From: Desulfomonile tiedjei DSM 6799
GTDB lineage: Bacteria; Desulfobacterota; Desulfomonilia; Desulfomonilales; Desulfomonilaceae
Assembly: GCF_000266945.1 (NCBI RefSeq)
Contig: NC_018025.1
Location: 4,282,001-4,346,000, forward strand
Direction of reading: 5' to 3'
DNA length: 64,000 nt
Of the stretch, positions 2 through 15,580 are shown in pieces (positions within the stretch are counted from its first letter, which is position 1; each line of letters starts with the position of its first letter). The notes beneath the pieces were generated by a model, which saw nothing but the letters and a program-made list of their open reading frames with translations, did not search any database and was not told the origin of the DNA. Made by a program: the position numbers and the translations under genes.

Positions 2-319
2 TCCGAGCTTTGGGTCCAGGTCGAGGTTCCGGAAGACCGGGTCTGCTACGTAAAGCCGGGTCAGGATATGTGGGTGTACCTGAATAATGAACCTCTCAAG
101 GGATACAAACTGAAAGTAGCCGAAATTGCACCCGCGTCAGAAGCCGTGGAACGTCTGGGGAATATCTATCGTGTGAAGGCCCCCTTTCCCGATGCAGAAG
201 CCTTTGCAAAAGTGGGTCTGAAGGGAGTGGGAAAGATCGAAACCAGAGACGCAAACCTCTGGTTTATTATCACAACACGGATCCTCAAGCACTGGAACAA
301 GTTGATGCTGTACTTCTAA
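2..319 (+). CDS. HlyD-like membrane-fusion protein, C-terminal fragment (cut by window edge)
   Basis: The open frame runs in from the left edge and stops at 319; a Met codon at 68 is internal, not a start. About 105 residues are visible. The pattern (VPE..V..VKPGQ, then a KVGLKGVGKIETR segment followed by a hydrophobic LWFIITTRIL tail) matches the end of the beta-barrel/membrane-proximal part of HlyD-type periplasmic adaptor proteins, in particular those associated with M50-like membrane peptidase or export systems. The rest of the gene and any partner pump lie outside the window. Function beyond a likely role in export or membrane-associated assembly cannot be said. Confidence 0.6.
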   Translation, partial: SELWVQVEVPEDRVCYVKPGQDMWVYLNNEPLKGYKLKVAEIAPASEAVERLGNIYRVKAPFPDAEAFAKVGLKGVGKIETRDANLWFIITTRILKHWNKLMLYF

Positions 320-587: not shown

Positions 588-2666
588 GTGACATACGAAC
601 ACCTTTGGCAATCGGAATTTACGAATACTGCTGTGTTTTCCATACTCGTACAATCTCACAATCAACTGTCTGAAGAAGTGCTCGGTGTAATTTCTCGTAT
701 TGAGATCGTTTCCATCAACTTGAAGGATGTCTTCTTCGGAAGCTACATTGAGCCTCTGAACGCGATTTCCCGGTTTACTGCAAAGAAGATCAGACGACTC
801 CTCAAGGAAGACCTGGGACCGAAATTCAGCGAAAGTCAACGAAGAGAACTCGAAGATAAGCTGGAATACCCTTCAACAGATTCTCTCACGGATATTGCGG
901 CTCGCGCAGTCTCCAGCATCGCCCCGGACCTGCAGCAGCATGTTGCAGAGCTCATTGTCCGGTACGAGCTCGAATCTTTCTGCGACTCTCTGTATGTGAA
1001 CGCCGGCATGCAGGAATTCATGAGAGAACTGAAGAAGCGCAATAAAAGATGCGTGCTTCTGTCGGACATTCATCTCAGTAAATCCCACCTGTCATATGTC
1101 CTGAATCGAAAGGCCGTAACCTGTTTTGATGCTATCTATGCAGGTGCGGACCTCGGCGCGGACAAATCGTCCGAAGCACTTTTCAGATCGCTCCTGCTTG
1201 GGGAGAACGTCCCACCTCAATCGGTGCTCCACATTGGAACGGATCAGGCGAACGATTTCCATGTGCCTTCTCGTTTGGGATTGAACACGGTGCTCATTGC
1301 GGACCCTCTTCTCAAAGCAAAGAAGAAGGTGCGAGCAACCTACTGCGACATGTCGGCAGCCAATCCGTACTGGCGGGGAATGCATGTTATAGGATCGACA
1401 ATCCCACCACAGTCCGGAGATTTTTATTACGATTACGGTTTCTCGTTCTTCGGGCCGGTATTCTGCACGTATATTCTCGGGGCGCTGGAAATCGTGCAGA
1501 AATATGGGATTAGGGACATCTATTTTCTCGCCAGGGAAGGCAAGTTTTTTCAGCAACTGTTTGAACTGCTCGCCCCGGATTTCTTTAGAGATATCCCTCG
1601 ATCTCATTACGTGTACCTGTCGCGTCGTTCAGTAGCACTGGCTTCGATTCATGAAGGTCTCACCTTTGAGAAAGCCATAATCCTGCCATTCGATAATCCC
1701 AAGCAGCAGGGGCTGTACTCGATTCTCCAGGCATTCGGATTACCCTGGGAAGAATTCGTGGAAAAGGCCGCATATTACGGACTGCCTGACATCCGAAAAC
1801 CCCTTTGGGGCCATGAGGATATGGCAATACTCAGAGCGTTTTGCAGCGATGCGGAGTTCACCCGGCGAGTGATCGAATTGTCCGCTCCGTACCGGGGTCT
1901 TGTGGAAAAATATCTCACCCAGGAGGGATTCTTCGGAAAAGCACACGTAGCCTTCGTTGACGTAGGCTGGCTCGCGACGATCCAAAAACTGGTTGGGGAT
2001 GCTTGCGGGAAGAGGAATGATTATCCCCACGTGTACGGGTTGTATATGGGATTCAGGGAAGCTGCATCCCACCGGTTCGATCCTGAAAAGAACACGCTTT
2101 TCGGACTCCTTTGTGACAACCGGGTTCCGGAACCGCAATTCGACGGTCCGTTCCATTTTCTCCAGGTGTTCGAACAAGCCGCCCGGGCTTTTCACCCCAC
2201 AGCAACGGGTTTTGTGGAAGATCCGGTAACCGGCGCCATTACCCCCACTTTCAAGAGTGAATCGGCTCCCGATCGGTTAATCGAACTGCGTCAAGATCCG
2301 GTAATTCGCGAGCTCCAACAGGGTGTCATTGATTTTACGCTGCAATTTCGCTCCATCATAAAGTCAACAGCATATACGTTCAGCGATATAAAGCCGTTCG
2401 TGGGGACTCTTATGGAACGCCACCTCGTGTTTCCTACAGCCGAGGAAGCGGATCGGATCATGAACCTGAAGCATTCCGAAGATTTTGGAACCGACAATGT
2501 CATGGACTGGACAGGAAACAGAACTCGCGGGCTCAGATCGATCCTCAAACCAAGGACGCTCTGGCGAAACATTCGGGGGTCATACTGGCCGGCCGGAACG
2601 GCAGGAAGTGCAGGAGCTCACCTTCTTCAATACCTGTTACGCGTCCGTGACCTTTTGAAATCGTGA
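588..2666 (+). CDS. HAD-superfamily-like protein of surface-glycan loci, active site degenerate
   Basis: A 692-residue protein with an N-terminal HAD-like domain (about 35-240) and a long C-terminal part (about 270-690) typical of large HAD-like proteins found beside glycosyltransferases. Family members carry an FDIFDTL-type motif I; here the matching stretch at 41-50 reads VSINLKDVFF, so the nucleophilic Asp is Asn44. Motif II Ser159 (LLSDIHLS) and motif III Lys193 remain, but motif IV is HIGTDQANDF rather than HIGDN..SD. The start is uncertain: GTG at 588 is the first possible codon after an in-frame stop, and there is no clear ribosome binding site; GTG at 678 (residue 31) is an alternative. 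The protein is probably not a phosphatase; a structural or binding role is possible. The surface-polysaccharide link rests on family context and on nearby glycosyltransferase and export genes. Confidence 0.7.
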   Translation: MTYEHLWQSEFTNTAVFSILVQSHNQLSEEVLGVISRIEIVSINLKDVFFGSYIEPLNAISRFTAKKIRRLLKEDLGPKFSESQRRELEDKLEYPSTDSLTDIAARAVSSIAPDLQQHVAELIVRYELESFCDSLYVNAGMQEFMRELKKRNKRCVLLSDIHLSKSHLSYVLNRKAVTCFDAIYAGADLGADKSSEALFRSLLLGENVPPQSVLHIGTDQANDFHVPSRLGLNTVLIADPLLKAKKKVRATYCDMSAANPYWRGMHVIGSTIPPQSGDFYYDYGFSFFGPVFCTYILGALEIVQKYGIRDIYFLAREGKFFQQLFELLAPDFFRDIPRSHYVYLSRRSVALASIHEGLTFEKAIILPFDNPKQQGLYSILQAFGLPWEEFVEKAAYYGLPDIRKPLWGHEDMAILRAFCSDAEFTRRVIELSAPYRGLVEKYLTQEGFFGKAHVAFVDVGWLATIQKLVGDACGKRNDYPHVYGLYMGFREAASHRFDPEKNTLFGLLCDNRVPEPQFDGPFHFLQVFEQAARAFHPTATGFVEDPVTGAITPTFKSESAPDRLIELRQDPVIRELQQGVIDFTLQFRSIIKSTAYTFSDIKPFVGTLMERHLVFPTAEEADRIMNLKHSEDFGTDNVMDWTGNRTRGLRSILKPRTLWRNIRGSYWPAGTAGSAGAHLLQYLLRVRDLLKS

Positions 2667-2986
2667 AGGTAGGGACAGGAAAAGTGAAACAGCAGAAATC
2701 CTTTTACGATCTCTTCCTTTTTTCGGCGATCAATTTCACTCATTGGACAGCCGCTCGTTTGAAACGTCGCAAACCTGGACTCCACGCACACTTCCATGAG
2801 CTGATACGCTGTATCACAGTCGAAAGCTCGCGCGTCTTCTACTGGGCTGCTTCCCTGTTCAGCCGACTTTCTCATTTTTTCTTTAGAGCGAAATATAGCC
2901 TTCAGAGAAAGATGAAATAGGTCAAGACGAAAGATTAGTTCCGATGTATTCCTTCAGTTATTCACGGAGGTGAGACGCTGTGAACA

Positions 2987-3073
2987 TGTCATTGCGAGGA
3001 GCGGAGCGACGTGGCAATCTCCTGACACGTGCCTGCACCTTCAAGGGATTGCTTCGCTTCGCTCGCAATGACA
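2987..3073. repeat. REP-type repeat (GTCATTGCGAGGAG ... CTCGCAATGAC), copy 1
   Basis: The inverted ends TGTCATTGCGAG and CTCGCAATGACA enclose a GAAGC/GCTTCGCTTCG core. A second full copy is at 17079-17177 and a decayed half at 37915-37950. This type of REP is widespread in bacteria. The gap 2667-3417 holds this, a short hairpin-unit remnant near 3166-3200 and repeat family copy A; I see no convincing gene there. Confidence 0.8.
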
Positions 3074-3210
3074 GGCATTCAGACGCTCTGGCATCAACTA
3101 CGTAATCAAACAAAATACCTCTCAAACCACCGCCCGTGACTGAAGCCTTACAGTTTTAGAATAATATCGAGACTTTTTGGAAGGGTTTGGGAACAATTCT
3201 TACAAATGGA

Positions 3211-3388
3211 TTATAGCAAGTGCATAAAATGGTATCCAATTGCAGAAAGCACTTCTTGACAATTGGTGGGTGCCGTGCCTCCGTGCCGGCACATTTTTAA
3301 CATGAAATCAGCCAGTTCTGGCCGGTAGGGACGCCGGCCACTACCGTTCTTCTAGAGAACAATGTGTTCAAAAGGGCAAGAATTATGC
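3211..3388 (+). repeat. GC-core dispersed repeat (CCTCCGTGCCGGCAC family), copy A
   Basis: Contains GGTGGGTGCCGTGCCTCC, the GTGCCGGCAC core and, about 35 bp on, GGCCGGTAGGGACGCCGGCC...CTACC, then a 3' part GTTCAAAAGG..AGAATTATG shared with other copies. Its closest relative is copy E (34911-35091), which shares the 5' flank TATAGCAAGTG.ATAAAAT. Confidence 0.8.
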
Positions 3389-3417
3389 CCCAGAGCAGCG
3401 CGGCTTTGGAGGCTTTA

Positions 3418-4869
3418 CTAATACACAATTTCTCCGAAGTCAGGAGGAAGATCCCGGTAATTAGGGTTCAATTTCGTGGTGTCCCAAATCCAGTCTATCC
3501 AGTAGAAACTCACCTGCCCTGCTCCAGTCGTAGCAAATTCGAGAGTCCAATCCCCAGTGGATGTATAATTTAACGGCACAATTGCCGTAAGATCGCTGCT
3601 GCCAAAGACCGTTGCGCCCGTCCACAGGGCTAGATCGGTAAGAAGCACTCTTCCATTGCTGCCAGGATCTCCAGCCAAGGAGCACGTCCAGAGCTGCAAT
3701 TGCGCATCAGGGGCGAGGACTTCGCTCAATTCCAAAAAGGCCCACGTGAAAGTGTCGTCATTCGAGCTGGTAATTCTGTCAGTTCCAATGGATAAGCTGT
3801 TCTCGCCCCCGTGCTCCAGAATCCCTTCACTGTGAATCCACGAGCGCTCTCCATAAGAGATCAACTGATTGTAATACAGCCATGTGCTCACATTAAAAGC
3901 CGCGTCCGTATACTGCACGATGCGAACGTCTAGTGCCGTATAATCCTGGACATAAAGAAAATTGGAACTGTCGAACGTAAAAAGAACGTCTATAGATTCG
4001 CTATATTGATAATTGCCGTTCCAAACCTGGTAATCCATAGTTGGACTCGGATTGTTGATAAAATAGTGCACAAGGATTTCTCCGGTCCAATTACCGACAA
4101 TGTAATAATCGCATCGGTCCAGGAAACCCGTCACTGGATCGAAAGATGTCGAGTAATTGTAATGAATCGGTTCACCATCGTATCCGATCCCATCATGTAA
4201 ATCCGGCTGAAACTCGTACGTGCTGTGTGCGCCGTACGCCGCATAGTCGTCATCAGTGAACCAGAGCGTGCAATCAATGGCTGCCCAGGAAGAACCATTC
4301 CAGAGATAGATCTCGTGAGCGCCTCCCAAATCTGCAGATACCCATCCCTGTTCGTAGAAGAGCCATCCTCCTGAGGCTTCGTCCTGATAATACCAGTCAC
4401 CCCCGAGATCGGCCCAAAAGTGTGCCCCATCCCAGTATATGTCGGCGGTCTCGGAGTATATTTTCCATTGCTCCACACCACAGTCCCACCACCACACATC
4501 TTCCGAATAATTGTCGTATGCCCAGTAACCGTTATCATTGTAGATCGTGCACCACTGGCCCGTGTTCTGTATCCAGAACGCTCCGTCCCAGTACCATTGC
4601 TCATATACGTCCCACTGCTCGAATCTGAAGTTGTAGATAAACCACGTGCCTGTACCGTCTTCTTGGGCAAAATAATTGTGCATATCGTAGAACCAGTAAC
4701 CGAAAGCCCCGATGTGCTGGTACCACCACCCATCTCCCGCGTATGTCCAGGGATTGGCGGCACCATCGTCAACTGCTCCATCGGACCCAGCGATCACGTC
4801 TCCGGCATTCTGGTTACTCGTATCGTCCTGGGCTCCGTCCAGCAGAATCCTGTGCTCAAGGACTTCCAT
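3418..4869 (-). CDS. LEPR-XLL surface protein with Trp/Tyr-rich repeats and DUF4347-like C-terminus
   Basis: I chose ATG 4869, preceded by GAGAGGTGGGG; a TTG start at 4917 would add 16 residues. The 483-residue protein starts with a LEPR-XLL-type motif (LEHRILLDGA, residues 4-13), which in known proteins marks the N-terminus of large exported adhesin-like proteins. Residues about 40-204 are extraordinarily aromatic (by my count about 23 Trp and 18 Tyr in 165), with an irregular repeat of the form YWDGA.FW...G.WY...D..GYW.YD. The end (about 360-460) resembles DUF4347: the stretch LQLWTCSLAGDPGS, then LA.WTGATVFGSSD and GDWTLEF. DUF4347 normally follows the LEPR motif directly in giant proteins, so this short form with a domain inserted between is unusual. 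There is no cleavable signal peptide. It is likely exported, with binding to sugar or cell envelope as a guess from the aromatic repeats. It is divergent from the glycosyltransferase at 5114. Confidence 0.65.
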   Translation of the reverse strand: MEVLEHRILLDGAQDDTSNQNAGDVIAGSDGAVDDGAANPWTYAGDGWWYQHIGAFGYWFYDMHNYFAQEDGTGTWFIYNFRFEQWDVYEQWYWDGAFWIQNTGQWCTIYNDNGYWAYDNYSEDVWWWDCGVEQWKIYSETADIYWDGAHFWADLGGDWYYQDEASGGWLFYEQGWVSADLGGAHEIYLWNGSSWAAIDCTLWFTDDDYAAYGAHSTYEFQPDLHDGIGYDGEPIHYNYSTSFDPVTGFLDRCDYYIVGNWTGEILVHYFINNPSPTMDYQVWNGNYQYSESIDVLFTFDSSNFLYVQDYTALDVRIVQYTDAAFNVSTWLYYNQLISYGERSWIHSEGILEHGGENSLSIGTDRITSSNDDTFTWAFLELSEVLAPDAQLQLWTCSLAGDPGSNGRVLLTDLALWTGATVFGSSDLTAIVPLNYTSTGDWTLEFATTGAGQVSFYWIDWIWDTTKLNPNYRDLPPDFGEIVY

Positions 4870-5113
4870 CCCCACCTCTCGATGCTGAATTTGTCGGAGA
4901 AAAGCAAAGGGAGTCAAGGCAATATCCTTTTCCGGAAAAGGACCTACACCACGATAATATCCGTGGGAATTATTTCAATTGTAAATCTTGCAGAACATCA
5001 GTCAAGAAAAAACCTGGAACCGATTTCTCCGGAATTTCGCGGTCCGACACATTGAATTTTCCTGTGATTTTCGGTATCCTAATGAAAAACCCGTACAACT
5101 TTCTGGTGAATAT

Positions 5114-6331
5114 ATGCCTAAATCATCCGCTCCATTAGTGAGTGTGGTCGTTCCTTCCTATAACCATGAACGTTACGTCAAACAGGCCTTGATGTCGGCA
5201 CTCGCGTCGACTATCGATGATATAGAAGTTGTTGTTGTCGACGATGGATCGAGTGATAATTCCCCTGAGATTATTCAAAGCATTGACGATCCGAGGATAC
5301 GATTCTTCTCCCAATCCAACAGCGGAGCACATGCAGCAATTAACAAAGGGGTGGAGCTTGCCCGGTCTGAATGGATAAGCATTCTTAACTCCGACGACCT
5401 GTATTTTCCTGAAAAACTGCAGACCCATCTGGAATTCCATGCCAGGCACCCGGAATTGGAGGCATCCGTTTCCACTGTTCGGTACGTGGATGAAGAAGGC
5501 GAACCGCTGGATGGAGAGAACGAATCGGTGAAGTGGTACCGGACTGCACGTCTCGCGTATCGCACTCAGCAATCGCTCCTGAAATCGCTTTTCGTCGCAA
5601 ACCATCTGGTTACCACTTCAAGCATTTTCGTAAAGAAACAAACGCTCGTGAAACTGGGCGGATTCAAATCTTTCCGGTATGTGCATGATTGGTTTTTCTT
5701 CCTCTCCCTGGCGCGAAAGGAGATGCTCCAGGTTATAGACAAACCGCTGGTGTGCTATCGTTTGCACGGCGATAATGCGGTGTTTGAAAATATGGACCGA
5801 TTACTCGCGGAATGCCACTTTGTTCTCGAGTGGCACCTCCACGAATGTGCGCGCGGCAAGAATCCGGTCTTGAGCATCGTAGAAGCTCATGAGCTGCTTG
5901 CGGCAAATCCACTGGTGGATTTTCAAGCATTGGCTCTCTGTCAGACATGGCGGGAGTCAAAAAAGAGCGACGCATCCAAGGTTTTTGCCGGAATCGATAC
6001 CATGCAGAATCCCGTGCTAAAAGCCATCCTGGGCATTATCAAAGCGAGAGGCGGAGAAATCGCTGCCTTGAGGACGGAGAACGAAAGGCTTTGTCAGGAA
6101 TCTCAGAGGCTGAATCATGAAAATCATCGTATCAACTATCAGAACCATAATTTGACCGGCGAAAATGTCCGGCTCAGCACTCAATGCGAACGCATGAGCG
6201 GAGAACACGCCAGATTAGTGCAAGAATGTTACAGATTAATAGCAGAAAATGAAAGAATCAACAGAGAGTGTGAACGTATCACATCTGAATATATGAATTT
6301 TATCAAAATGCATTCTGACTCGCAGAAGTAA
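5114..6331 (+). CDS. Family 2 glycosyltransferase with C-terminal heptad-repeat coiled coil
   Basis: Start ATG 5114, with GGTGA five bases upstream, puts the GT2 core at the N-terminus; the open frame extends to 4988 but that extension has no similarity to the fold. The 405-residue protein has VSVVVPSYNHE, the nucleotide-binding DDGSSD (43-48), NSDD (92-95, the metal-binding DXD equivalent) and a VHDWFFFLSLA segment near the acceptor region. It should transfer a sugar from a nucleotide-sugar to a glycan or lipid acceptor at the cytoplasmic face. Residues 322-398 are eleven consecutive seven-residue units of the form E-N-x-R-(L/I/M)-x-x, predicting a long amphipathic helix or coiled coil, possibly for oligomerisation or contact with a polysaccharide machine. 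Acceptor and sugar cannot be predicted. The gene stands alone on this strand. Confidence 0.88.
   Translation: MPKSSAPLVSVVVPSYNHERYVKQALMSALASTIDDIEVVVVDDGSSDNSPEIIQSIDDPRIRFFSQSNSGAHAAINKGVELARSEWISILNSDDLYFPEKLQTHLEFHARHPELEASVSTVRYVDEEGEPLDGENESVKWYRTARLAYRTQQSLLKSLFVANHLVTTSSIFVKKQTLVKLGGFKSFRYVHDWFFFLSLARKEMLQVIDKPLVCYRLHGDNAVFENMDRLLAECHFVLEWHLHECARGKNPVLSIVEAHELLAANPLVDFQALALCQTWRESKKSDASKVFAGIDTMQNPVLKAILGIIKARGGEIAALRTENERLCQESQRLNHENHRINYQNHNLTGENVRLSTQCERMSGEHARLVQECYRLIAENERINRECERITSEYMNFIKMHSDSQK
6077..6307 (+). other. Eleven tandem heptad codons units inside the glycosyltransferase gene
   Basis: Encodes eleven consecutive heptads, with Arg at position 4 (Asn in two units) and Leu/Ile/Met at position 5 in nearly all (Phe in the last). 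The DNA itself is not a perfect tandem repeat, so the pattern is kept at protein level. Confidence 0.8.
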
Positions 6332-6477
6332 GTGGTACTAGTTGCACCTGCTGTTAGACCGAAAATTGTCCTGCAAGAAAGCGCTGTCACAGATTTTATA
6401 CCTACAAACATTAAAGAGTTACAGTAGATTTTGTTGATTTCGACGTTCACAATCTGTATCCCCGATGTAAAAATCAT

Positions 6478-6506
6478 TTGACAAATCACCTCGCAAGTGT
6501 TTATTA
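6478..6506 (+). promoter_or_regulatory. Candidate sigma70 promoter
   Basis: TTGACA at 6478-6483, 17-bp spacer, TTATTA at 6501-6506. It lies 117 bp before the tiny ORF at 6623 and about 600 bp before the adaptor gene at 7114. It is seen by eye only; TTATTA is a weak -10. Confidence 0.4.
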
Positions 6507-6622
6507 TTAGGCACTTTTGTGTGCGGACTGTGCATCTCTCCGGTGTGTCTTTATTTTTCTATTCGCGGATGCGGTGGCGAAGAGCACCATTGCAAATGCC
6601 ATTCAATGGTGAAGGAGGAATA

Positions 6623-6667
6623 ATGTTGCCAAACAAATGTAAGCCGTGTGGGCAACAATTACTATGA
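6623..6667 (+). CDS. Possible 14-residue peptide with C-x2-C motif
   Basis: ATG 6623 follows GAAGGAGGAATA, one of the strongest ribosome binding sites in the window, and the frame (MLPNKCKPCGQQLL) ends at 6667. A promoter-like sequence lies upstream. It may be a leader peptide, a true micropeptide, or the surviving start of a decayed gene. The gap 6332-7113 otherwise shows nothing I recognise; longer frames between 6686 and 7093 lack ribosome binding sites and look like chance. Confidence 0.3.
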   Translation: MLPNKCKPCGQQLL

Positions 6668-7113
6668 TTTATACGTGTCATACCAATGTGCGTTCAAAGA
6701 AGTAACATCTGGGAATCCGCTCCCGGCATGTCTCCGAAGCGAAGTCAGCCACGCCAAGGCGTGGCGTTCGTAGCGAAGGAAATTTGCCGGGACCGCGCAA
6801 ATAACAGGTTTCTCAATATTCCCTTTATGAAAACACATTGGTATTACCGGCTGCATTCTCTCGTTCATAACCGAAACATGAAATTCGGCGAGCTTACCGC
6901 GAATGGATTACGGATCTGCAGAAACAGATCGGCGACACTTCGTGATAACGGATGCGTCGAAGACGGAGGCTGCTCGCAATCCGTCTCCCGGGTCCGGGTT
7001 CTTTCTTTATATGCGAGGGATTTCTTAGATCGGAAACGAGATTTACCGGTTCGTTCCAGGCTGCATTCGATAGTTGCAGAGGCTCACGTGTAGTCTCGCT
7101 TTCGGGGGCTTAT

Positions 7114-8061
7114 ATGGAATATGCGACTTTTGCGCGGAAGCGCTATTTGGTTTATTTCATCGTTGTTTCGGCTTTCTTCACAGCGTTCATTCCATGGGGC
7201 GGCGCAGAGCAGTCAACTGCAACTTCTGTGGAGACAGACCGATCCGTTCCTTCACCGCATCCCGGAGCTGCTCAGAACGAGTCACCGACCCCCTGGAAGA
7301 CTCCACCGCCGGCTGTACCTTCCGAACGTCTCATCCGGGAGGAAATACCTTTCAGCAGAACTTCCCCCCGCATAGAAGCCACCATAGTCAACCCATTCCG
7401 AAAAGCAGAAGTGCCCGCGGAAATACCCGGGGTCATTTCGGTCTTGAACTTTGAGGAAGGCGACCTCGTCAAAGAGGGCCAAATCGTAATGGAATTGGAC
7501 AGCAAGCAGTATCAACTGGATTTCGAAAAAGCACGCGAAAAACTTGCCGCTCTCGAGATTGCGGCTGAAATAGCCCAGAAGGAACTAAAGACCCAGGAAG
7601 AATTGTATGGATTGGATTCAACGAGCCTTCAGGATCTCTTGAGGAAGCAGGGTGAAGCAAATCTCGCGATGTCCAGGGCGAAAGAGGCAAGAGCCGAGTT
7701 TGAACTGGCTGAGTTAAATCTCAAGCGCTGCAAGATTCGCGCACCGTTTACCGGATTCATAGCATTGATACATAAACAGCCGTTTGAGGCGACCAGAAAT
7801 CTCGAGAGCCTCTTTTACATGGTTGACAGTGCCAAGGTGTTTACCATTGCTAATGTTCCGGAAGAAAGAATGCATGAATTCACTAAAGGAGTCAAAACGG
7901 TTTTCTGGCCGCGAACCGGAGGGGAATTCAAGGGAACTGTGGACCGAGTCGGAAAGGTAATCGATCCGAAATCCAAAACAAAGAGAGTTTGGGTGCTCAT
8001 TCCAAATGAAAACCAAGCACTTGAAGTAGGTATGACCGGATCTTTGGAAGTCTCGAAGTAA
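7114..8061 (+). CDS. Periplasmic adaptor (HlyD/RND-type membrane-fusion) protein
   Basis: ATG 7114 is the best start because it gives a signal-anchor (YLVYFIVVSAFFTAFIP) at the N-terminus, with GGGGG upstream; the frame is open to 6952 but that part reads as non-coding. The 315-residue protein has a proline-rich linker (about 35-75), a first lipoyl half (PAEIPGVISVLNFEEGDLVKEG), a helical hairpin rich in Glu/Lys/Ala (about 130-200), the second lipoyl half (CKIRAPFTGFI) and a beta-barrel domain ending LEVGMTGSLEV. Such adaptors link an inner-membrane pump to an outer-membrane channel. The next gene, two bases on, is a TolC-like channel protein, so they form an operon, but no pump gene is present; a distant pump is implied. 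The substrate is unknown. Confidence 0.85.
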   Translation: MEYATFARKRYLVYFIVVSAFFTAFIPWGGAEQSTATSVETDRSVPSPHPGAAQNESPTPWKTPPPAVPSERLIREEIPFSRTSPRIEATIVNPFRKAEVPAEIPGVISVLNFEEGDLVKEGQIVMELDSKQYQLDFEKAREKLAALEIAAEIAQKELKTQEELYGLDSTSLQDLLRKQGEANLAMSRAKEARAEFELAELNLKRCKIRAPFTGFIALIHKQPFEATRNLESLFYMVDSAKVFTIANVPEERMHEFTKGVKTVFWPRTGGEFKGTVDRVGKVIDPKSKTKRVWVLIPNENQALEVGMTGSLEVSK

Positions 8062-8063
8062 AC

Positions 8064-9575
8064 ATGATAAGCGCTGTCAAATATAAACTGAAATTGCTTT
8101 TCTTTTTTGCAATGAGCGCTCCTTGGCTGTTCACTTCGTGCACGTTTACCCAGTTGAGAGCTTTCCAACCGGATATTCATCAACTTGCCACGGCAAATCG
8201 AACCGCAGCGTCTATGGTGGAAAACCGTCTCAGGCCTGCGACTCTCGTGGCCGGAAAACAATGGCTTATACTGGAAGATTGTAGAAATATCACACTGATG
8301 AACAATCTTGATATTCAAGTTGCTCGTCAGGACGAACAGACAAAACGTCAGTTGCGCAACGGCCAAATGGCTCAAATGCTGCCTCACGCAGCCGTTTCCG
8401 GCCAATTGAGCGACAGGGATAACATAGGCTGGAGTTACAGCGAAGTCATCGCTGAAGAAGGGCTCTCTGCATCAACGGCTCCTCGGCCCGTAATCTCCTT
8501 CCCGCCGTATCCGTACAGGTACGCTAACGGACGAGAGCGATCTACATGGCGCTATTCTGCAGAATTCAGATGGAGCCCCGTCGAAGCGTTGACCGCTTTC
8601 TATCGAACCAAGAGCAGGTCGAACCAGCGCATCTCTGCGTACTACGAGCGAATCAAGCGAGCCCAAAAGGTGCTCGGCCGAACCGAGAGTTCCTTTTTCC
8701 GATTACTGGCTCTTCAAGAAGCTTTGCCTATGGCCGCTCGGCTGAAGAGCATTCGTTCCGACATCGTCGACAAACGAGCCGAGCTTATTGAAAAGAAACT
8801 TGTGAATATCGAAGAATATAACGATGCAGTCCAACGATATATCCGGGCAAGGCGTATTTACGTTCAGGTGAGAAACGATCTCGAGAAGCAACGGAATTTC
8901 TTGGCATCCTCAATGGGGCTTTCGCCGGATTACACAATTGATGGCGGCTTTTACGTAGCCGGTAAGCTCGAAGAACCGGGTTTCAGAGCCGAAATGGCCG
9001 ATCTGGAAGCTCAAGCGGTAAGAACCCGACCCGAATTATACATCGCGGGACTGGAAAATCTCAGTTCCGAGAATGATCTGAAAGCCTCGTATATCAAGTA
9101 TGCGCCACAAGTCACAGGGTTTTACAGGTATAACCGCGATAAAGACAAATTCCTTCTGGACAAGGAATATGCTGAATATGGAATGAACTTCAGAGTAGAC
9201 CTGTTCGATTGGATCGGCGCTTCCTTTGAAGGAAACGCAGCTCAGTCGAACATATATAAGACCCGCCGAGACCTGACAAGGGTTGCTTTGGAAGTATCGT
9301 TGGAAGTGCGGGACACTTTCCTAAAATATTTCGATGCATTGGAGCAGGTTCAGAATTCAGCCCAGTCAGTCCGGATGGCAAGAAGAGTGCTGGAAGTGGC
9401 AAGACACAGGTCGGCGACCGGCGCTGCAGATAAGGTCCGCGAGCAGGAGGCGGGAGCAAATCTCCTGGAGGCAAAGATCGAACGAGTTAGTAATCTCGGA
9501 GAGGCTGCAGCCAATCTGGCGCTCCTTTACGCGGCCATGGGAGTAAATTACCAGGAACCTGTTCCCCAGGATTAG
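8064..9575 (+). CDS. TolC-like outer-membrane efflux protein (probable lipoprotein)
   Basis: The 503-residue protein has an N-terminal hydrophobic stretch ending LFTSC, close to a lipobox, so it is probably an outer-membrane lipoprotein like NodT/OprM-type channels. The body is long helices with Ala/Glu/Arg-rich heptads, including two typical outer-membrane-efflux repeats (about 190-300 and 390-490; e.g. VEKR-like helices, SLEVRDTFLKYFDALEQV). There is a region rich in Pro/Tyr around 135-155. It should form a trimeric channel through the outer membrane and the periplasm. It starts two bases after the adaptor gene and is surely co-transcribed with it. It shows only distant family resemblance to well-studied TolC. 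Confidence 0.8.
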   Translation: MISAVKYKLKLLFFFAMSAPWLFTSCTFTQLRAFQPDIHQLATANRTAASMVENRLRPATLVAGKQWLILEDCRNITLMNNLDIQVARQDEQTKRQLRNGQMAQMLPHAAVSGQLSDRDNIGWSYSEVIAEEGLSASTAPRPVISFPPYPYRYANGRERSTWRYSAEFRWSPVEALTAFYRTKSRSNQRISAYYERIKRAQKVLGRTESSFFRLLALQEALPMAARLKSIRSDIVDKRAELIEKKLVNIEEYNDAVQRYIRARRIYVQVRNDLEKQRNFLASSMGLSPDYTIDGGFYVAGKLEEPGFRAEMADLEAQAVRTRPELYIAGLENLSSENDLKASYIKYAPQVTGFYRYNRDKDKFLLDKEYAEYGMNFRVDLFDWIGASFEGNAAQSNIYKTRRDLTRVALEVSLEVRDTFLKYFDALEQVQNSAQSVRMARRVLEVARHRSATGAADKVREQEAGANLLEAKIERVSNLGEAAANLALLYAAMGVNYQEPVPQD

Positions 9576-9632
9576 TATTCAATTACTCTGGTATTCTTAC
9601 GAAATCGGTGTCCACATTGTTATAGTATTATT

Positions 9633-10187
9633 ATGAACAAAAGAATTCCGCTGACAGTGTACACCATAGGTCATTCCAATCATTCCTTCGATACTTTTTT
9701 GTCCTTACTGCAGCAGCATTCAATCAAGATGATTGCGGATATCCGCAGTTTTCCCGGTTCGAAAAAATTCCCTCATTTCAACCGCGACTACCTCAGGGAG
9801 AATCTGCCCGAACATGATATCCAATATCTCTGGATACCCAAATTAGGAGGACGGAGAAAAAGTCCTGCAGGATTCGTGTCGCCGAACACGGGACTTGTCA
9901 ATCCGGGTTTCCGAGGGTACGCGGATTACATGGGCACTCTTCAGTTCCGTGAAGGAGTGTCGGAATTCCTTGCCGCGGCCAGGACTTCCAGGACGGCCTC
10001 CATGTGCGCGGAGGTTCTGTACTGGCAATGTCACCGGCGTCTTCTAAGTGACTATCTTTCGCTTTTGGGAATAGAAGTTTTTCATATCATGGGGCAAAAG
10101 GATCCGATTCTCCATCCCCTGTCCCCGGAGGCGACCATGACGACCGAAGGCATCGTCATTTATCCACCGGCGTTACAATTTCATTAG
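9633..10187 (+). CDS. DUF488 family protein
   Basis: The 184-residue protein begins TVYTIGHSNHSFDTFLSLL and contains IADIRSFPGSKKFPHFN, IPKLGGRR and the CAEVLYWQCHRRLLSDYL segment with a Cys-Ala-Glu and Cys-His-Arg pair, then V.HI. This is the full DUF488 pattern at the usual length (roughly 110-190). The biochemical role of the family is not established; the conserved Cys/His/Arg residues suggest a small ligand or nucleic-acid site. It lies 57 bp after the TolC-like gene and could be a separate unit. I see no repair or modification partner next to it. Confidence 0.85.
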   Translation: MNKRIPLTVYTIGHSNHSFDTFLSLLQQHSIKMIADIRSFPGSKKFPHFNRDYLRENLPEHDIQYLWIPKLGGRRKSPAGFVSPNTGLVNPGFRGYADYMGTLQFREGVSEFLAAARTSRTASMCAEVLYWQCHRRLLSDYLSLLGIEVFHIMGQKDPILHPLSPEATMTTEGIVIYPPALQFH

Positions 10188-10338
10188 ACAAAGAAGCTTG
10201 CAGAGTCTGCGCAGAATGCGGTATCCATCAGGAACCGCATAAAATCGCGCTATCACCAGATTCACGAACGATACGGTTCATTTCATCCATCCCATCCTAC
10301 TCGCTGTGAGTCGAACTATTGGCACTTGCCAAAATTAG

Positions 10339-10495
10339 TGACCGATTGAGGATTAGGAGTATCGGTGGGTGCCGTGCCTCCGTGCCGGCACGTGTTCATC
10401 AATGATATCAATATAATGGACCAACAGGGACGCCGGTCCCCTACCTGTAGCTTCTATTTGAGCATGGGATGAACGTCAGAATTTTTGGCACTCGC
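10339..10495 (+). repeat. GC-core dispersed repeat, copy B
   Basis: TCGGTGGGTGCCGTGCCTCC, GTGCCGGCAC, then CAGGGACGCCGGTCCCCTACC and a tail GTCAGAATTTTTGGCACT similar to that of copy E. It fills most of the 10188-10557 gap. Confidence 0.78.
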
Positions 10496-10557
10496 TAAAA
10501 GTCTAATCCATTCGCAAAAGAGTGACTATTGTTTGAAATCTTGAAAAGACAGTGCTA

Positions 10558-11889
10558 TCAGCGGCCGTTCCCAAACGAGGCGAATGTCGAACCGCCGGAA
10601 GGAAAGACCCAGACTGTCGCGCTGCTTGGAGCTTTGGATGCAGCCCAGTCCATGATCGATTCCGTTTTGTTGAAGCTCCTGGCGAGCCCCATTTTCCTGC
10701 CGATATCCTCCGGCAGAAGCCGACTGTCGCTGAAAATCCCCAGATGGTTGCGTCTCAGCATTTGAAGACCGAAATGTCCGATAAACACCTCCTCCACCGG
10801 TTCGCCTTTCTTCGCCTTTTCCACGAGAGATAGAACGCGATTTTTCCCAATCACCTTTAGGAGCGTTCTCATCACCGGATAGGGAAGAGTCTTCTTCGCT
10901 AGAGGCATCTCGCCCAGGCCATGGATGCTGCGTGCGAATGCCAGGAGTACTCCTCCGGGCTTGCATGCGTACAGTGAATTTCCGATGCATTTGACCGATT
11001 GCCGCAGGTCGGCATCCATGGGAAACGAGTTCGCCACGACAACATCGGCCTGTTCCGGGACTTCCTGTCGGGAAATTTCAAGCACGAACTTTTCACCCTG
11101 TCTCTGAGCAATGATGGGGTCACCGCAGAAAAAAGCTGCCGCACGCGCCTGTTCGTTCATGGCCACGTTTACAATGAACACGTCTTTTTTCAGGAGACTC
11201 GCTCCCTCCTCGAGATCTTGCCGCATCGGAGAACGATCCCCCACGGTGCCGACGTAATCGAAATTGTCCGGATCGACCCCTTGCATATGATTCTTTCCGA
11301 TCGTCTCGGCAGCGGCACAACCGGGAATCAACATCTTCAGTCCTCCTCCGAATCCGAGGAGCAAGTGAGGTTCAATGGCGCCAACACACACAATAAGGTC
11401 AGCTTCCGTGAGAAGCCTATTGAGAACCACTTTGGTGCCTCTGGCAGTGATCCCGACTTCTCTGAGACTGTCCGAATCGGACGCGTCATGGCAGCGCCAG
11501 GGATGCGCGTCCATCAATGCTCGACCGAGCTTCTTCTCCACTTCATCAAGACGGCTCTGGCGGTGGACACCCGTGGCGATCAAAATTTGTATGCTCTCTG
11601 CAGTTGCTCCTGCTGCCAGGAGTTCATTCATAACAGGCTGCAGGAATTCGGCTACGGGTGTGGGACGAGAATGATCGTCAACCACAGCGACAACACGCTT
11701 ACCGGAAAGAGCACGTTGCGACAGTCGAGATGCTGCAATCGGGTTGGACAGAGCTTCCGCACATGCTGCGGCTGGGTCCGCAATTGTAGGCACCGACCTG
11801 GGTTTCAGCTCACCGAGAATTCGCCATGTGTCTGGAACGGAAATCTTGAGAGATTCTTCTCCCCACGGAAACTCAATGAATCTGGCCAT
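10558..11889 (-). CDS. larA: LarA-type nickel-pincer racemase/epimerase homologue
   Basis: ATG 11889 is preceded by GAGGTGAAAAATCA, so this start is preferred over the open frame to 11961. The 443-residue protein matches lactate racemase LarA (DUF2088) in order: VVDDHSRPTP with Asp72 and Arg75, ATGVHR with His109, AIEPHLLLGFGGGLKMLIPG with His175 and Lys185, and NH with His201. In the Lactiplantibacillus enzyme the equivalents are Asp72, Arg75, His108, His174, Lys184 (which carries the pincer cofactor) and His200, so the active site appears complete. LarA homologues act on several 2-hydroxy acids, not only lactate, so the substrate is open; the symbol is by homology. The cofactor-making larB, larC and larE are not in the window. 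It is monocistronic in an area of repeats. Confidence 0.85.
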   Translation of the reverse strand: MARFIEFPWGEESLKISVPDTWRILGELKPRSVPTIADPAAACAEALSNPIAASRLSQRALSGKRVVAVVDDHSRPTPVAEFLQPVMNELLAAGATAESIQILIATGVHRQSRLDEVEKKLGRALMDAHPWRCHDASDSDSLREVGITARGTKVVLNRLLTEADLIVCVGAIEPHLLLGFGGGLKMLIPGCAAAETIGKNHMQGVDPDNFDYVGTVGDRSPMRQDLEEGASLLKKDVFIVNVAMNEQARAAAFFCGDPIIAQRQGEKFVLEISRQEVPEQADVVVANSFPMDADLRQSVKCIGNSLYACKPGGVLLAFARSIHGLGEMPLAKKTLPYPVMRTLLKVIGKNRVLSLVEKAKKGEPVEEVFIGHFGLQMLRRNHLGIFSDSRLLPEDIGRKMGLARSFNKTESIMDWAASKAPSSATVWVFPSGGSTFASFGNGR

Positions 11890-12016
11890 TGATTTTTCAC
11901 CTCGATACATTTTGAATTCAGGAGGATAATATTGCGAAAGACTTACGCCCCAACCTCTCACAGGTTCTGACTTCGTTCCGAGCTCTTCGTCCCATAGAGC
12001 CCGGGAATTTCAGAGA

Positions 12017-12193
12017 CTGTCTCAGAATTCTCGAATGCATAACAATCGTGCCACGATTCGCCATCTTCGTAGGGGTAGGCCTAGTGCCTACCCTTATTTG
12101 GGCGGACACGAGGCCCGCCCCTACAATCAGGCCGGCAGGACCATGAGAACTTCGTGCCACGATCTGGGATAGATTTCGACTTTTGGGACAGCC
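12017..12193. repeat. MITE-like element with CTGTCTCA/TGAGACAG-type ends, copy 1
   Basis: The left end CTGTCTCAGAATTCTCGAA mirrors the right end TTCGACTTTTGGGACAG. Inside are two CGTGCCACGAT words and facing GTAGGGGTAGGC / GCCCGCCCCTAC arms. A nearly identical full copy lies at 57081-57251 and half copies at 57371-57440 and 17315-17386. There is no coding capacity. It occupies much of the 11890-12395 gap, where I see nothing else. Confidence 0.75.
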
Positions 12194-12395
12194 TATTCAT
12201 TGCCGGGAATTTTTGCGTCAGTCGTCCCTCTGAGACTCAAAAATCACATATTGTTCCTTAAACGGCGATGAATCGTCGACCTATTTTCCCCGGGTCTCGC
12301 GGGATTCCTCCGGAACAAATGACCCAAAACACTCTAAGCTAGCACATGCTCGGACACCCTTCCTTCATTACGAAAGAATATCAGGTCCCGCGACG

Positions 12396-13283
12396 TCATT
12401 TTCGGTTCAGAAACCGCCTTGAGCTTCGCAGCCACTCGGTCCACCGCCAGGATCTGGAGTTTAGCAAACGCGTCATTTGATTCTGTAGCTCTTCAATCCG
12501 GGCCTGGTGTTGTTCCATCAGTCGATTCTGTTCGGAATACTGTTCGGAAAGTCGGCCCAGTTTTTCTTCAGTCTCTTCTATACGTGATTCCAAAGAAATA
12601 TTCAGTCCTAATGCAGTGAAGAAGCTTCTTATCGCAGCGGTACTCTCTGCGTCGGCTCGGAAGAATTCCCGTAACGCTCCCCCTCTAGCACTCTCTCCTA
12701 CTCCGATTATTCCTAAACCGTGACAATGTGTGAACTCGAAAACAGGGTACCGGTCGGCCAATTCTCGGAACAACCTTTCCACACCAAAATCGCGTTCCCG
12801 CACACAGGTATCGTGCATCAGCACAATTCCCTTCTTGCTCATTTTGGGAAGCCACAGTTCAAAATCGCGTTTTACCGCATCGTAATAATGGAGACCGTCA
12901 ATGTGAAGAAGGTCGATAGAACCATCCGAAAAATGCTGGACCGCCTCGTCAAAGCTCATACGCATGAGCGTGGAAAAGCCTCCATACAAGGGATCATGAT
13001 AGCTCGCCAGATCCTGATATACCTCTTCCCCGTACCAGCCAGCGTGCTCGTCTCCTCTCCATGTATCAACTGCCGAACATCTGGTCGGAAGATCCAATGA
13101 TTCGACAGCCTGGCAGAATGCACAATACGAAACTCCCGTGTACGCGCCTAATTCCACCAGGGTTGCAGGCCTCAGGATCTGTATCAACCCGAATGCGAAG
13201 GGAATATGTTCCGTCCACGCTGAAATCCGAAGCCTCAGAGGTTTCATGAATACAGCGGGGTAATCGAGAGGATTGAAGTCCAT
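12396..13283 (-). CDS. Class I SAM-dependent methyltransferase with C-terminal coiled coil
   Basis: The 295-residue protein starts at ATG 13283 (a GTG at 13292 is possible; neither has a strong ribosome site). The SAM-binding motif LVELGAYTGVSY is at 42-53, an acidic AVDTW follows at 71-75, and LLHIDGLHYYDAVKRD with IVLMHDT (about 125-159) fits the Methyltransf_24 fold. Residues about 230-275 are a Glu/Gln/Arg/Leu-rich coiled coil, followed by SRSWRWTEWLR, a short tail motif often seen in polysaccharide-cluster glycosyltransferases and methyltransferases. It follows wzt by about 10 bases, so it should act in the same surface polysaccharide pathway. Methylation of the growing or finished chain end is an attractive idea, by analogy to WbdD in O9a synthesis, but it is inference. 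Confidence 0.82.
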   Translation of the reverse strand: MDFNPLDYPAVFMKPLRLRISAWTEHIPFAFGLIQILRPATLVELGAYTGVSYCAFCQAVESLDLPTRCSAVDTWRGDEHAGWYGEEVYQDLASYHDPLYGGFSTLMRMSFDEAVQHFSDGSIDLLHIDGLHYYDAVKRDFELWLPKMSKKGIVLMHDTCVRERDFGVERLFRELADRYPVFEFTHCHGLGIIGVGESARGGALREFFRADAESTAAIRSFFTALGLNISLESRIEETEEKLGRLSEQYSEQNRLMEQHQARIEELQNQMTRLLNSRSWRWTEWLRSSRRFLNRK

Positions 13284-13293
13284 TGCCTGCACG

Positions 13294-14667
13294 TTATTCG
13301 GAATGCACCCGGAGCGAGATCTTTTCCATAGGAATCCCTATGAGCCCACTCCAATTGCTCGTTGAATGAGACTTGAAAATGAGCGCATCGTGCATCCAAT
13401 GTTGATGCACATGCTGTTCCTGAGATCCCTCTGCCACCGCCGCAGTTATGGAGTAATCGCCTACGAGCAATATTGGCATGCGGAAACAGAACTCTGCTTC
13501 GAATCTTTCCCCGGCCTGTATCGACACGGGATTGTTTCTGTACGTTACGTACGTGTTGTCTCCAAACAAAGTCTGTCCTAGCCGGTCGCGCACGTAGAAG
13601 CCCACAATCGGGCTCATTATATCCGCGTGCGCCATGCAGATGATTCGCAGGCACACAGATTCACCGCCTACTATCCATGAGAGCGGTGTTTTTGACATGC
13701 GTTCCAGAAATTTCACGTCAATAATTGAGGCGCTGAAGTTGCCGAATGAATGTGCATCGGGATCGAAGTGGAATACTTCGATGTCATTCCGAAGAGGTGA
13801 TGCATTAATGTACTTCAGCCTTTGATCGACCATTTCCTCAGGGTCGATCGGCACAGGAAGCTCTCTGATGGAATTCTTCGATCTGTTCACATCCTGTCGA
13901 GCCGCGAAGACCTTTTCGAGATACAGATCGCAAATGTCTCTTGCAGATCCCTGTGCCTGGATCATACCTCCGTCCAAGAGAATTGCTCTATCGCATAGAT
14001 TAATGACCGCAGCAGTGTCGTGACTCACGAACAACAGTGTCCCTTTTTCCAGAAATTTCCGTAAGTAGCGCATGCATTTCTGAGCGAAGAACGCATCCCC
14101 CACAGCCAGCGCTTCGTCAATGACCAGAATGTCGGCATTCACATGCGCTGCAATCGCGAAGGCCAGACGGACGTACATTCCACTGGAATACGTCTTCACC
14201 GGCTGATGGATAAAATCGCCGATATCCGCAAATTCGAGGATTGCCTCGTACTGCTCGTCAATTTCTTCCTTCTTGAGCCCCAATACCGAGGCATTCATGT
14301 ATACGTTTTCTTTCCCGGAAAATTCAGGGTTGAAACCGGATCCCAGCTCGAGAAGCGCGCCGATGCGGCCTCGAATTTCAATGGATCCCGTGGTAGGCGC
14401 AAGCGTGCCACAGATGATCTGCAGGAGTGTGCTCTTTCCGCTGCCATTTTTCCCGATTATGCCGATTGATTCTCCCCGGCCTATATCGAATGAGAGATCG
14501 CGTAAAGCCCAGAATTCTCGAAAATATCGCTTTTCCCGTACGGGCAGCCACCGTGACAGCATTGTGCGAAGCGGCTGTTTCAATCTGTCCTGGGGAGAGT
14601 CCCAGAGATGATAGCTCTTTCCGATATTATGGATCGAAATTGCGGGAAAATCAGTATCCAGACTCAT
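13294..14667 (-). CDS. wzt: ABC transporter ATP-binding protein for polysaccharide export (Wzt type)
   Basis: ATG 14667 (GGAG upstream) is chosen; a longer frame from 14730 would overlap wzm by 17 bases. About 457 residues. The ATPase domain has Walker A GIIGKNGSGKST, signature YSSGMYVRLAFA, Walker B ILVIDEALAVGD and switch His in LLFVSHD. After about residue 260 there is a C-terminal beta-sandwich region (VKFLERM...SIQAGERFEAEFCFRMP...YSITAAVAEGSQEQ), as in the carbohydrate-binding domain of O9a Wzt, which recognises a modified chain end before export. It pairs with the Wzm permease directly upstream and a methyltransferase directly downstream. Together they form an O-antigen or capsule exporter at the inner membrane. 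Confidence 0.9.
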   Translation of the reverse strand: MSLDTDFPAISIHNIGKSYHLWDSPQDRLKQPLRTMLSRWLPVREKRYFREFWALRDLSFDIGRGESIGIIGKNGSGKSTLLQIICGTLAPTTGSIEIRGRIGALLELGSGFNPEFSGKENVYMNASVLGLKKEEIDEQYEAILEFADIGDFIHQPVKTYSSGMYVRLAFAIAAHVNADILVIDEALAVGDAFFAQKCMRYLRKFLEKGTLLFVSHDTAAVINLCDRAILLDGGMIQAQGSARDICDLYLEKVFAARQDVNRSKNSIRELPVPIDPEEMVDQRLKYINASPLRNDIEVFHFDPDAHSFGNFSASIIDVKFLERMSKTPLSWIVGGESVCLRIICMAHADIMSPIVGFYVRDRLGQTLFGDNTYVTYRNNPVSIQAGERFEAEFCFRMPILLVGDYSITAAVAEGSQEQHVHQHWMHDALIFKSHSTSNWSGLIGIPMEKISLRVHSE

Positions 14668-14713
14668 TCCATGTTGCTCCGAACGGATAGTCTCCTTTCG
14701 CATTCTCCCAGTT

Positions 14714-15580
14714 TCAGATGACATCTGCAAATGCCCTTTTGGTTTTCATGAACCAGGCATAGCCCAACTGAAGAACGATCAGGGAAAGAAGTCCAATCAA
14801 CGCGAGCCATCCCCAATCAGGATATGCCCCCCACATGAGGGTTTTTCGAGCATTCTCGAGAATTACCGTAAGGGGATTCAGTTGAATAAGAAGCCTATAG
14901 GGTTCCGGCACAGCGGACAGCGGGAAGAAAATGCCTGAAATGAATAACAAAATCTGCACCACTATGCCGATAGGATGCCCTATGTCTCGGACAAAAACCC
15001 CCAGAGAGGACAAGAACCAACTGAACCCCAGAGTCAACATAAGCAGGGGAAGCGCCACCAGCGGAAACAGATAGATCGTCGAAGAGAAAGTCCCCTTAAA
15101 CAGGATGAGCGCAGGGATTAAGATCGTCAGACTGATGACGGCTTGTACAAGGCTTGAACAGAGTATGGCAACCGGTAATATTTCCAGCGGGAAAATAACC
15201 TTTTTCACGTAATTCGGATTGCTGAGAATCAGTTGAGGCGCTCGGATGATGCTTTCGGCAAACACATTGAACAGTACGAGACCGCAAAACAGCGTGAGTC
15301 CGATATCCAGGAATCCTTCATTTTGCCCGACACCCCATTTTATGCTGAAGATGACGCCGAACACGAAGGCATACACTGCAAGCATGAGAAGCGGCGTTAT
15401 GAATGACCACACTATTCCCAGGTACGATCCCCGGTAACGCTCGACGGTATCTCTCCATGCGAGCCGCGCAATCAAATCTTTGTGGCTGTACAGATGGACA
15501 GCCATTCTCAAAGGATTCAGGTATTGCGCAACTGGGACCGGCTTGCCGGAAATAACTGACGGAGGCTCCATTTCATTCAT
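14714..15580 (-). CDS. wzm: ABC-2 type polysaccharide export permease (Wzm type)
   Basis: The 288-residue integral membrane protein has about six hydrophobic segments, the N-terminal LIARLAWRDTVERYRGSYLGIVWSF amphipathic region (given here as its parts LIARLAWRD and YRGSYLGIVWSF) and the PNYVKKVIFPLEILP loop, all hallmarks of Wzm/TagG/KpsM permeases. It forms the channel through which undecaprenyl-linked glycan is moved to the periplasm. Its partner ATPase wzt begins near its end. Start ATG 15580, part of an ATGAATGAAATG cluster, so 15574 is also possible. It lies downstream of the DUF3467 gene on the same strand and may be in its operon. Confidence 0.9.
   Translation of the reverse strand: MNEMEPPSVISGKPVPVAQYLNPLRMAVHLYSHKDLIARLAWRDTVERYRGSYLGIVWSFITPLLMLAVYAFVFGVIFSIKWGVGQNEGFLDIGLTLFCGLVLFNVFAESIIRAPQLILSNPNYVKKVIFPLEILPVAILCSSLVQAVISLTILIPALILFKGTFSSTIYLFPLVALPLLMLTLGFSWFLSSLGVFVRDIGHPIGIVVQILLFISGIFFPLSAVPEPYRLLIQLNPLTVILENARKTLMWGAYPDWGWLALIGLLSLIVLQLGYAWFMKTKRAFADVI

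Follow-up and report, generated by a model that had tools for sequence, protein, structure and literature searches.

About 20 genes of the Desulfomonile tiedjei DSM 6799 genome encode an unnamed repeat module rich in tryptophan and tyrosine (W/Y), and this newly defined family is, judged by profile matches, confined in its expanded form to one lineage, with diverged relatives in the genus and family. The member described here lies in a window of 64,000 nucleotides (positions 4,282,001-4,346,000 of contig 1 of the 6.53 Mb genome; hereafter the window), where the module is combined with a LEPR-XLL-like N-terminus and a DUF4347 domain. Both LEPR-XLL and DUF4347 have names but have received little study, and the locus supplies a candidate exporter for LEPR-XLL proteins. 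Aromatic hairpin anchors such as those on Gram-positive surface proteins may also serve outside the Gram-positives.

Gene layout and terminal domains

The gene occupies positions 3418-4917 on the minus strand and encodes, by its open reading frame and translation, a protein of 499 amino acids with a predicted pI of 4.05 (2 Lys and 10 Arg residues). Its start is more likely TTG 4917 than ATG 4869, the codon chosen in the first-pass annotation, because a Shine-Dalgarno-like AAAAGGA lies about 8 bases upstream of the TTG and because the longer frame takes in an arginine, located four residues before the LEPR-XLL-like motif, that is present in most paralogs. Residues 40-204 counted from ATG 4869 correspond to residues 56-220 of the longer frame, which is used below. 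The predicted protein comprises the LEPR-XLL-like N-terminus, a W/Y-rich region of about 160 residues, a linker and DUF4347. The linker (WFTDDDYAAYGAHSTYEFQPDLHDGIGYDGEP; 4018-4269, minus strand) is common to some LEPR-XLL/DUF4347 paralogs, with tblastn matches in the same genome at 2025878, 5975693 and 722326. Downstream of the gene's stop codon, at window positions 2989-3075, we noticed by eye a REP-like palindrome (CATTGCGAGGAGCGGAGCGACGTGGCAATC ... GCTTCGCTCGCAATGACAGG).

The N-terminal motif (MEVLEHRILLDGA), contained in HREVGMEVLEHRILLDGA (4834-4887, minus strand), was recognized by alignment with paralogs (LE.LE.RIVLDGA) and by a profile derived from them, which matches it with 21.1 bits. 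The LEPR-XLL N-terminus proposed in the first-pass annotation is borne out, although as a LEPR-XLL-like motif: the window copy has diverged from the consensus, and the NCBIfam model NF012209 is silent on the protein. The same model is passed outright by four module-bearing paralogs, and by three more with neighbouring pieces. The Pfam model of the planctomycete extracellular motif, PF07595, finds no match in the window protein at its gathering cut-off and matches one paralog weakly, under the cut-off (E = 0.021). This planctomycete motif, equivalent to the LEPR-XLL-like motif, is thought to act as an export signal in planctomycetes (PMC8567305). Like the sequences behind NF012209 and PF07595, the window protein has an N-terminal LExLExR-hydrophobic motif of a type carried by proteins that are often large and repeat-rich; it differs from them in a copy that stays under the NF012209 threshold and in the W/Y module that comes after the motif.

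The C-terminal end, described earlier as DUF4347-like, proved to be a real DUF4347 domain (3493-4011, minus strand; delimited with an alignment of 16 domains). PF14252 matches residues 361-465 over profile positions 47-145 of 164, with an E-value of 1.8e-11 and 44.5 bits against a cut-off of 24.6; the N-terminal quarter of the domain is too diverged for a profile match. Two residues invariant in the 16-sequence alignment, His369 (3811-3813, minus strand) and Cys412 (3682-3684, minus strand), form a putative catalytic pair and align with the His and Cys of PDB entry 9QPE, Tce1 of Pseudomonas aeruginosa, which is found by the DUF4347 profile. Its authors regard Tce1 as a putative cysteine protease whose His/Cys pair corresponds to that of the TcdB protease domain (TcdB-CPD-like; PMC13323088). 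The window protein thus shares with Tce1 the domain, by profile, and both residues; unlike Tce1, which is a T6SS cargo, it carries DUF4347 within a LEPR-XLL protein encoded beside HlyD and TolC genes, and with a diverged N-terminal quarter. A scan of viral contigs with the DUF4347 relatives returned nothing.

A repeat module rich in tryptophan and tyrosine

The W/Y-rich repeat module spans residues 57-216 (4270-4749, minus strand) and is made up of roughly 50-residue units that close with YWDGA.FW-like strings, as delimited by composition, self-alignment, a leave-one-out profile and profile matches across the genome. Tryptophan and tyrosine make up 23-25% of residues 56-220, in agreement with the earlier count of about a quarter; for comparison, the median W+Y content of the richest 165-residue stretch per ORF is 5.5% among 638 ORFs from the fetched loci. 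The loose repeat noted earlier is real as well: two units of about 50 residues each contain EQW...YWDGA.FW. It is loose indeed, the internal repetition being only just beyond chance because the local self-alignment score of 89 compares with a maximum of 83 among 300 shuffles. Comparison with relatives is the more powerful test: a module profile built from 18 paralogs with the window protein left out gives that protein 23.8 bits, against a best score of -13.6 for 1000 composition-preserving shuffles. The module is very acidic (pI 4.05, charge about -26) and contains hardly any Lys or Arg. In support of a W/Y repeat without a database family, the region has no match in Pfam, NCBIfam or PDB sequences, and searches of PDB sequences with module profiles and with same-genus repeats yielded nothing convincing. 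Structure predictions made from the window sequence alone, without an alignment, were too poor for use (pLDDT 45.8 and 31.8).

Within the genome, a profile built from eight module members (A2) matches 34 places, which belong to 20 genes; all 20, when checked, start with a LEPR-XLL-like motif and have the module directly behind it. A long ORF at 5.975 Mb contains an additional match, a weaker one. The layout, taken earlier to be known in no family, is therefore not unique. The invariant columns of the module are almost all Trp, and paralog alignments show both the positions and the spacing of these tryptophans to be conserved, whereas the C-termini vary between genes and include DUF4347, ELWxxDGT repeats, cadherin-like/Ig domains, RTX and SEC10/PgrA-like (CAP-like) domains. 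The window protein had also been called short for its group, which holds against the giant LEPR-XLL proteins of relatives but not against its own paralogs, 11 of 19 of which are of similar length (305-617 aa). Two module paralogs of 424 aa (L073:6798-8072 and L074:6722-7996), 1.3 Mb apart on opposite strands, are identical over all sequence compared, a recent duplication. Octamer-like strings (GWWFNENT GWWWNQNT GWWWNESD), reminiscent of OCRE repeats, occur at the N-termini of L041:4324-7077, L063:5737-7392 and L064:6008-7861.

Outside this genome, the module profile matches none of 394 genomes from the phylum, and within the family its weak matches are restricted to a same-genus genome (G001). 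The proteins concerned combine an apparent Sec signal peptide (by eye) with a 68-residue aromatic repeat, and in two copies a DUF4347-like domain forms the C-terminus. Iterative HMMER merging failed to join these repeats with the module; profile-profile comparison alone did so (hhalign, 92%, score 37.7, with a column-shuffle maximum of 17.3). The 68-residue repeat is also found far inside a 5095-aa LEPR-XLL protein of G005, and DUF4347 proteins from G004 and G011 contain W/Y-rich segments. No relatives emerged when genome and viral contig collections were scanned with the window protein or alignment A4, which is weak evidence of absence given that such scans need near-exact peptides, and plasmid searches gave, beyond the module, Ig/cadherin-type matches only. 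In both L045:6826-7827 and L142:64-2202, a LEPR-XLL motif and aromatic repeats occur together with a CAP-like domain at the C-terminus, and the G004 protein of this pair has DUF4347 in addition; the same parts appear in a different order.

Likeness to Gram-positive cell-wall-binding repeats

The first-pass annotation was reminded of binding repeats of Gram-positive bacteria, and this hunch is partly supported because, with the A2 profile, the resemblance exceeds that of both shuffles and W/Y-rich decoys. Specifically, hhalign aligns A2 with the choline-binding domain of Cpl-1 over 37 columns with a score of 32.6 and a probability of 68%, against 19.6 for the best of 100 shuffles and 22.2 for the best of 300 real W/Y-rich segments; with a wider alignment (A6) the probability falls to 4.5%. 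What did not hold is assignment to the known models: PF01473, PF19127 and PF19085 match none of the 15 proteins scanned (the window protein and 14 paralogs), whereas the positive control, Cpl-1, is matched by the Pfam choline-binding models at 6.9e-26. The module shares Gly-Trp, W-aromatic-aromatic-Asp and short Gly/Asn turns with choline-binding repeats (PF01473, PF19127; Cpl-1). Unlike them, it has units of some 50-60 residues instead of about 20 (about 50 in the window protein, 68 columns in the relatives) and occurs in a host outside the Gram-positive setting. On these comparisons we take the likeness as one of shared design, not as membership of a known cell-wall-binding family.

Candidate exporter neighbourhood and proposed function

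The gene is flanked by genes for components of a putative exporter. On one side, both on the plus strand, are an HlyD/RND-type periplasmic adaptor (7108-8061; TIGR01730, 134 bits, cut-off passed; HlyD_D23, 4.9e-15) and a TolC-family outer membrane protein (8064-9575; Pfam OEP, 2.5e-18). On the other side, the C-terminal end of a second HlyD-type adaptor enters the window at 2-319 (plus strand). This 491-aa protein (L049:12844-14319; tblastn 100%; Pfam HlyD_D23, 2e-19) has a long N-terminal extension and lies mostly outside the window, and just upstream of it, also outside, is an M50-HlyD fusion gene (Peptidase_M50, 4.8e-8, plus HlyD_3, with an HEFSH motif). In the family, all four genes, or as many of them as the fetched stretch covers, flank LEPR-XLL/DUF4347 genes (loci L085, L088, L089, L090, L091, L095 and L154) or, at L087, a DUF4347 locus; the genomes with the set or part of it beside LEPR-XLL/DUF4347 genes are G004, G005, G006, G008 and G009. 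Across a phylum sample of 395 genomes, M50-HlyD occurs in 21, DUF4347 in 16 and both in 14; the Fisher P of 7e-19 is too small because the sample contains related genomes, the 16 with DUF4347 falling in 10 families with related genomes included. In five genomes (G127, G137, G190, G284 and G389), a long DUF4347 frame and M50-HlyD, judged by frame lengths, are a few kb apart on one contig. Most of the 20 module paralogs are not beside an exporter.

Neither the cluster in the window nor its counterparts in relatives contain an ORF with the pattern of an HlyB-type ABC transporter (Walker A, then LSGG); the pattern is strict and misses nearby Wzt-type ATPases. The system resembles type I secretion adhesins (RTX, cadherin-like) in its HlyD/TolC neighbours and in the RTX or cadherin-like repeats of some paralogs, and departs from them in that the window protein has no RTX repeats and the cluster shows an M50-HlyD fusion and, by the strict pattern, no canonical ABC transporter. 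By eye, surface-polysaccharide genes were recognized nearby (window 588-15580 and L049:378-7888): two Wzm/Wzt-like ABC pairs, several genes for glycosyltransferases and one resembling a sugar epimerase.

The module, its family and the conserved tryptophans, the DUF4347 domain with its dyad and the conserved gene neighbourhood are shown by the analysis; export and location are inferred, as are the hairpin fold, the glycan ligand and proteolysis. We give even chances to the proposal that the product of the window gene is an exported protein of the envelope or surface, held to a surface glycan by its repeat module, with its cognate exporter adjoining. The LEPR-XLL-like N-terminus would act as the export signal, and gene context suggests that the neighbouring HlyD, TolC, M50-HlyD and second HlyD proteins are the likely cognate exporter. 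The module may fold as a string of short beta-hairpins with exposed aromatics, which would bind an envelope glycan made by the cell itself, probably the product of the surrounding polysaccharide gene cluster; bound in this way, the module would keep the various C-terminal domains on the cell surface. In the window member, DUF4347 would be a CPD/caspase-like domain with conserved His and Cys, most likely with protease activity towards itself or a partner.

Other explanations of the module can be envisioned. Its place behind the LEPR-XLL motif in 20 of 20 paralogs, whatever their C-terminal domains, would suit a role in export or assembly, with the module as a docking, retention or plug segment recognized by the exporter and not a ligand binder. 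Such a role appears unlikely: relatives in the family that possess the same exporter set carry LEPR-XLL and DUF4347 and lack the module at the N-terminus, and the position of the module is not fixed because diverged copies occupy other places, behind Sec-type signal peptides (by eye), deep in the 5095-aa protein and after DUF4347. The pronounced acidity of the module and the limitation of its expansion to one lineage would also fit an aromatic, self-assembling segment with no specific ligand, from which an extracellular matrix or envelope structure is built, for example the collar of Desulfomonile, a genus with a collar-like cell-wall invagination (PMC7773648). We regard this as distinctly improbable, in that the conservation of specific Trp positions and spacing exceeds mere composition and no paralog is linked to the collar by any evidence. 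Finally, the shortness of the window member, its diverged motif and its partial DUF4347 might suggest that its W/Y richness is an accident of composition, or that the frame is spurious or in decay, but the chance of this is very slight indeed given 499 open codons, a DUF4347 domain in frame with its dyad kept and a leave-one-out profile match far above all 1000 shuffles.

Attachment of an exported protein to a surface glycan is the reading we prefer for the window member. A bolder one is tentative and rather doubtful: the module would represent a new glycan-binding repeat family of one Gram-negative lineage, serving as the shared N-terminal surface anchor of about 20 proteins that leave the cell by an M50-HlyD/HlyD/TolC exporter, which would read the LEPR-XLL motif and work without a canonical ABC transporter.

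A second exporter set, with TolC, M50-HlyD and an HlyD adaptor, is encoded elsewhere in the same genome (L158:5239-10601; G000:C1:1285239-1290601), about 30 kb from a LEPR-XLL frame of 4854 aa.
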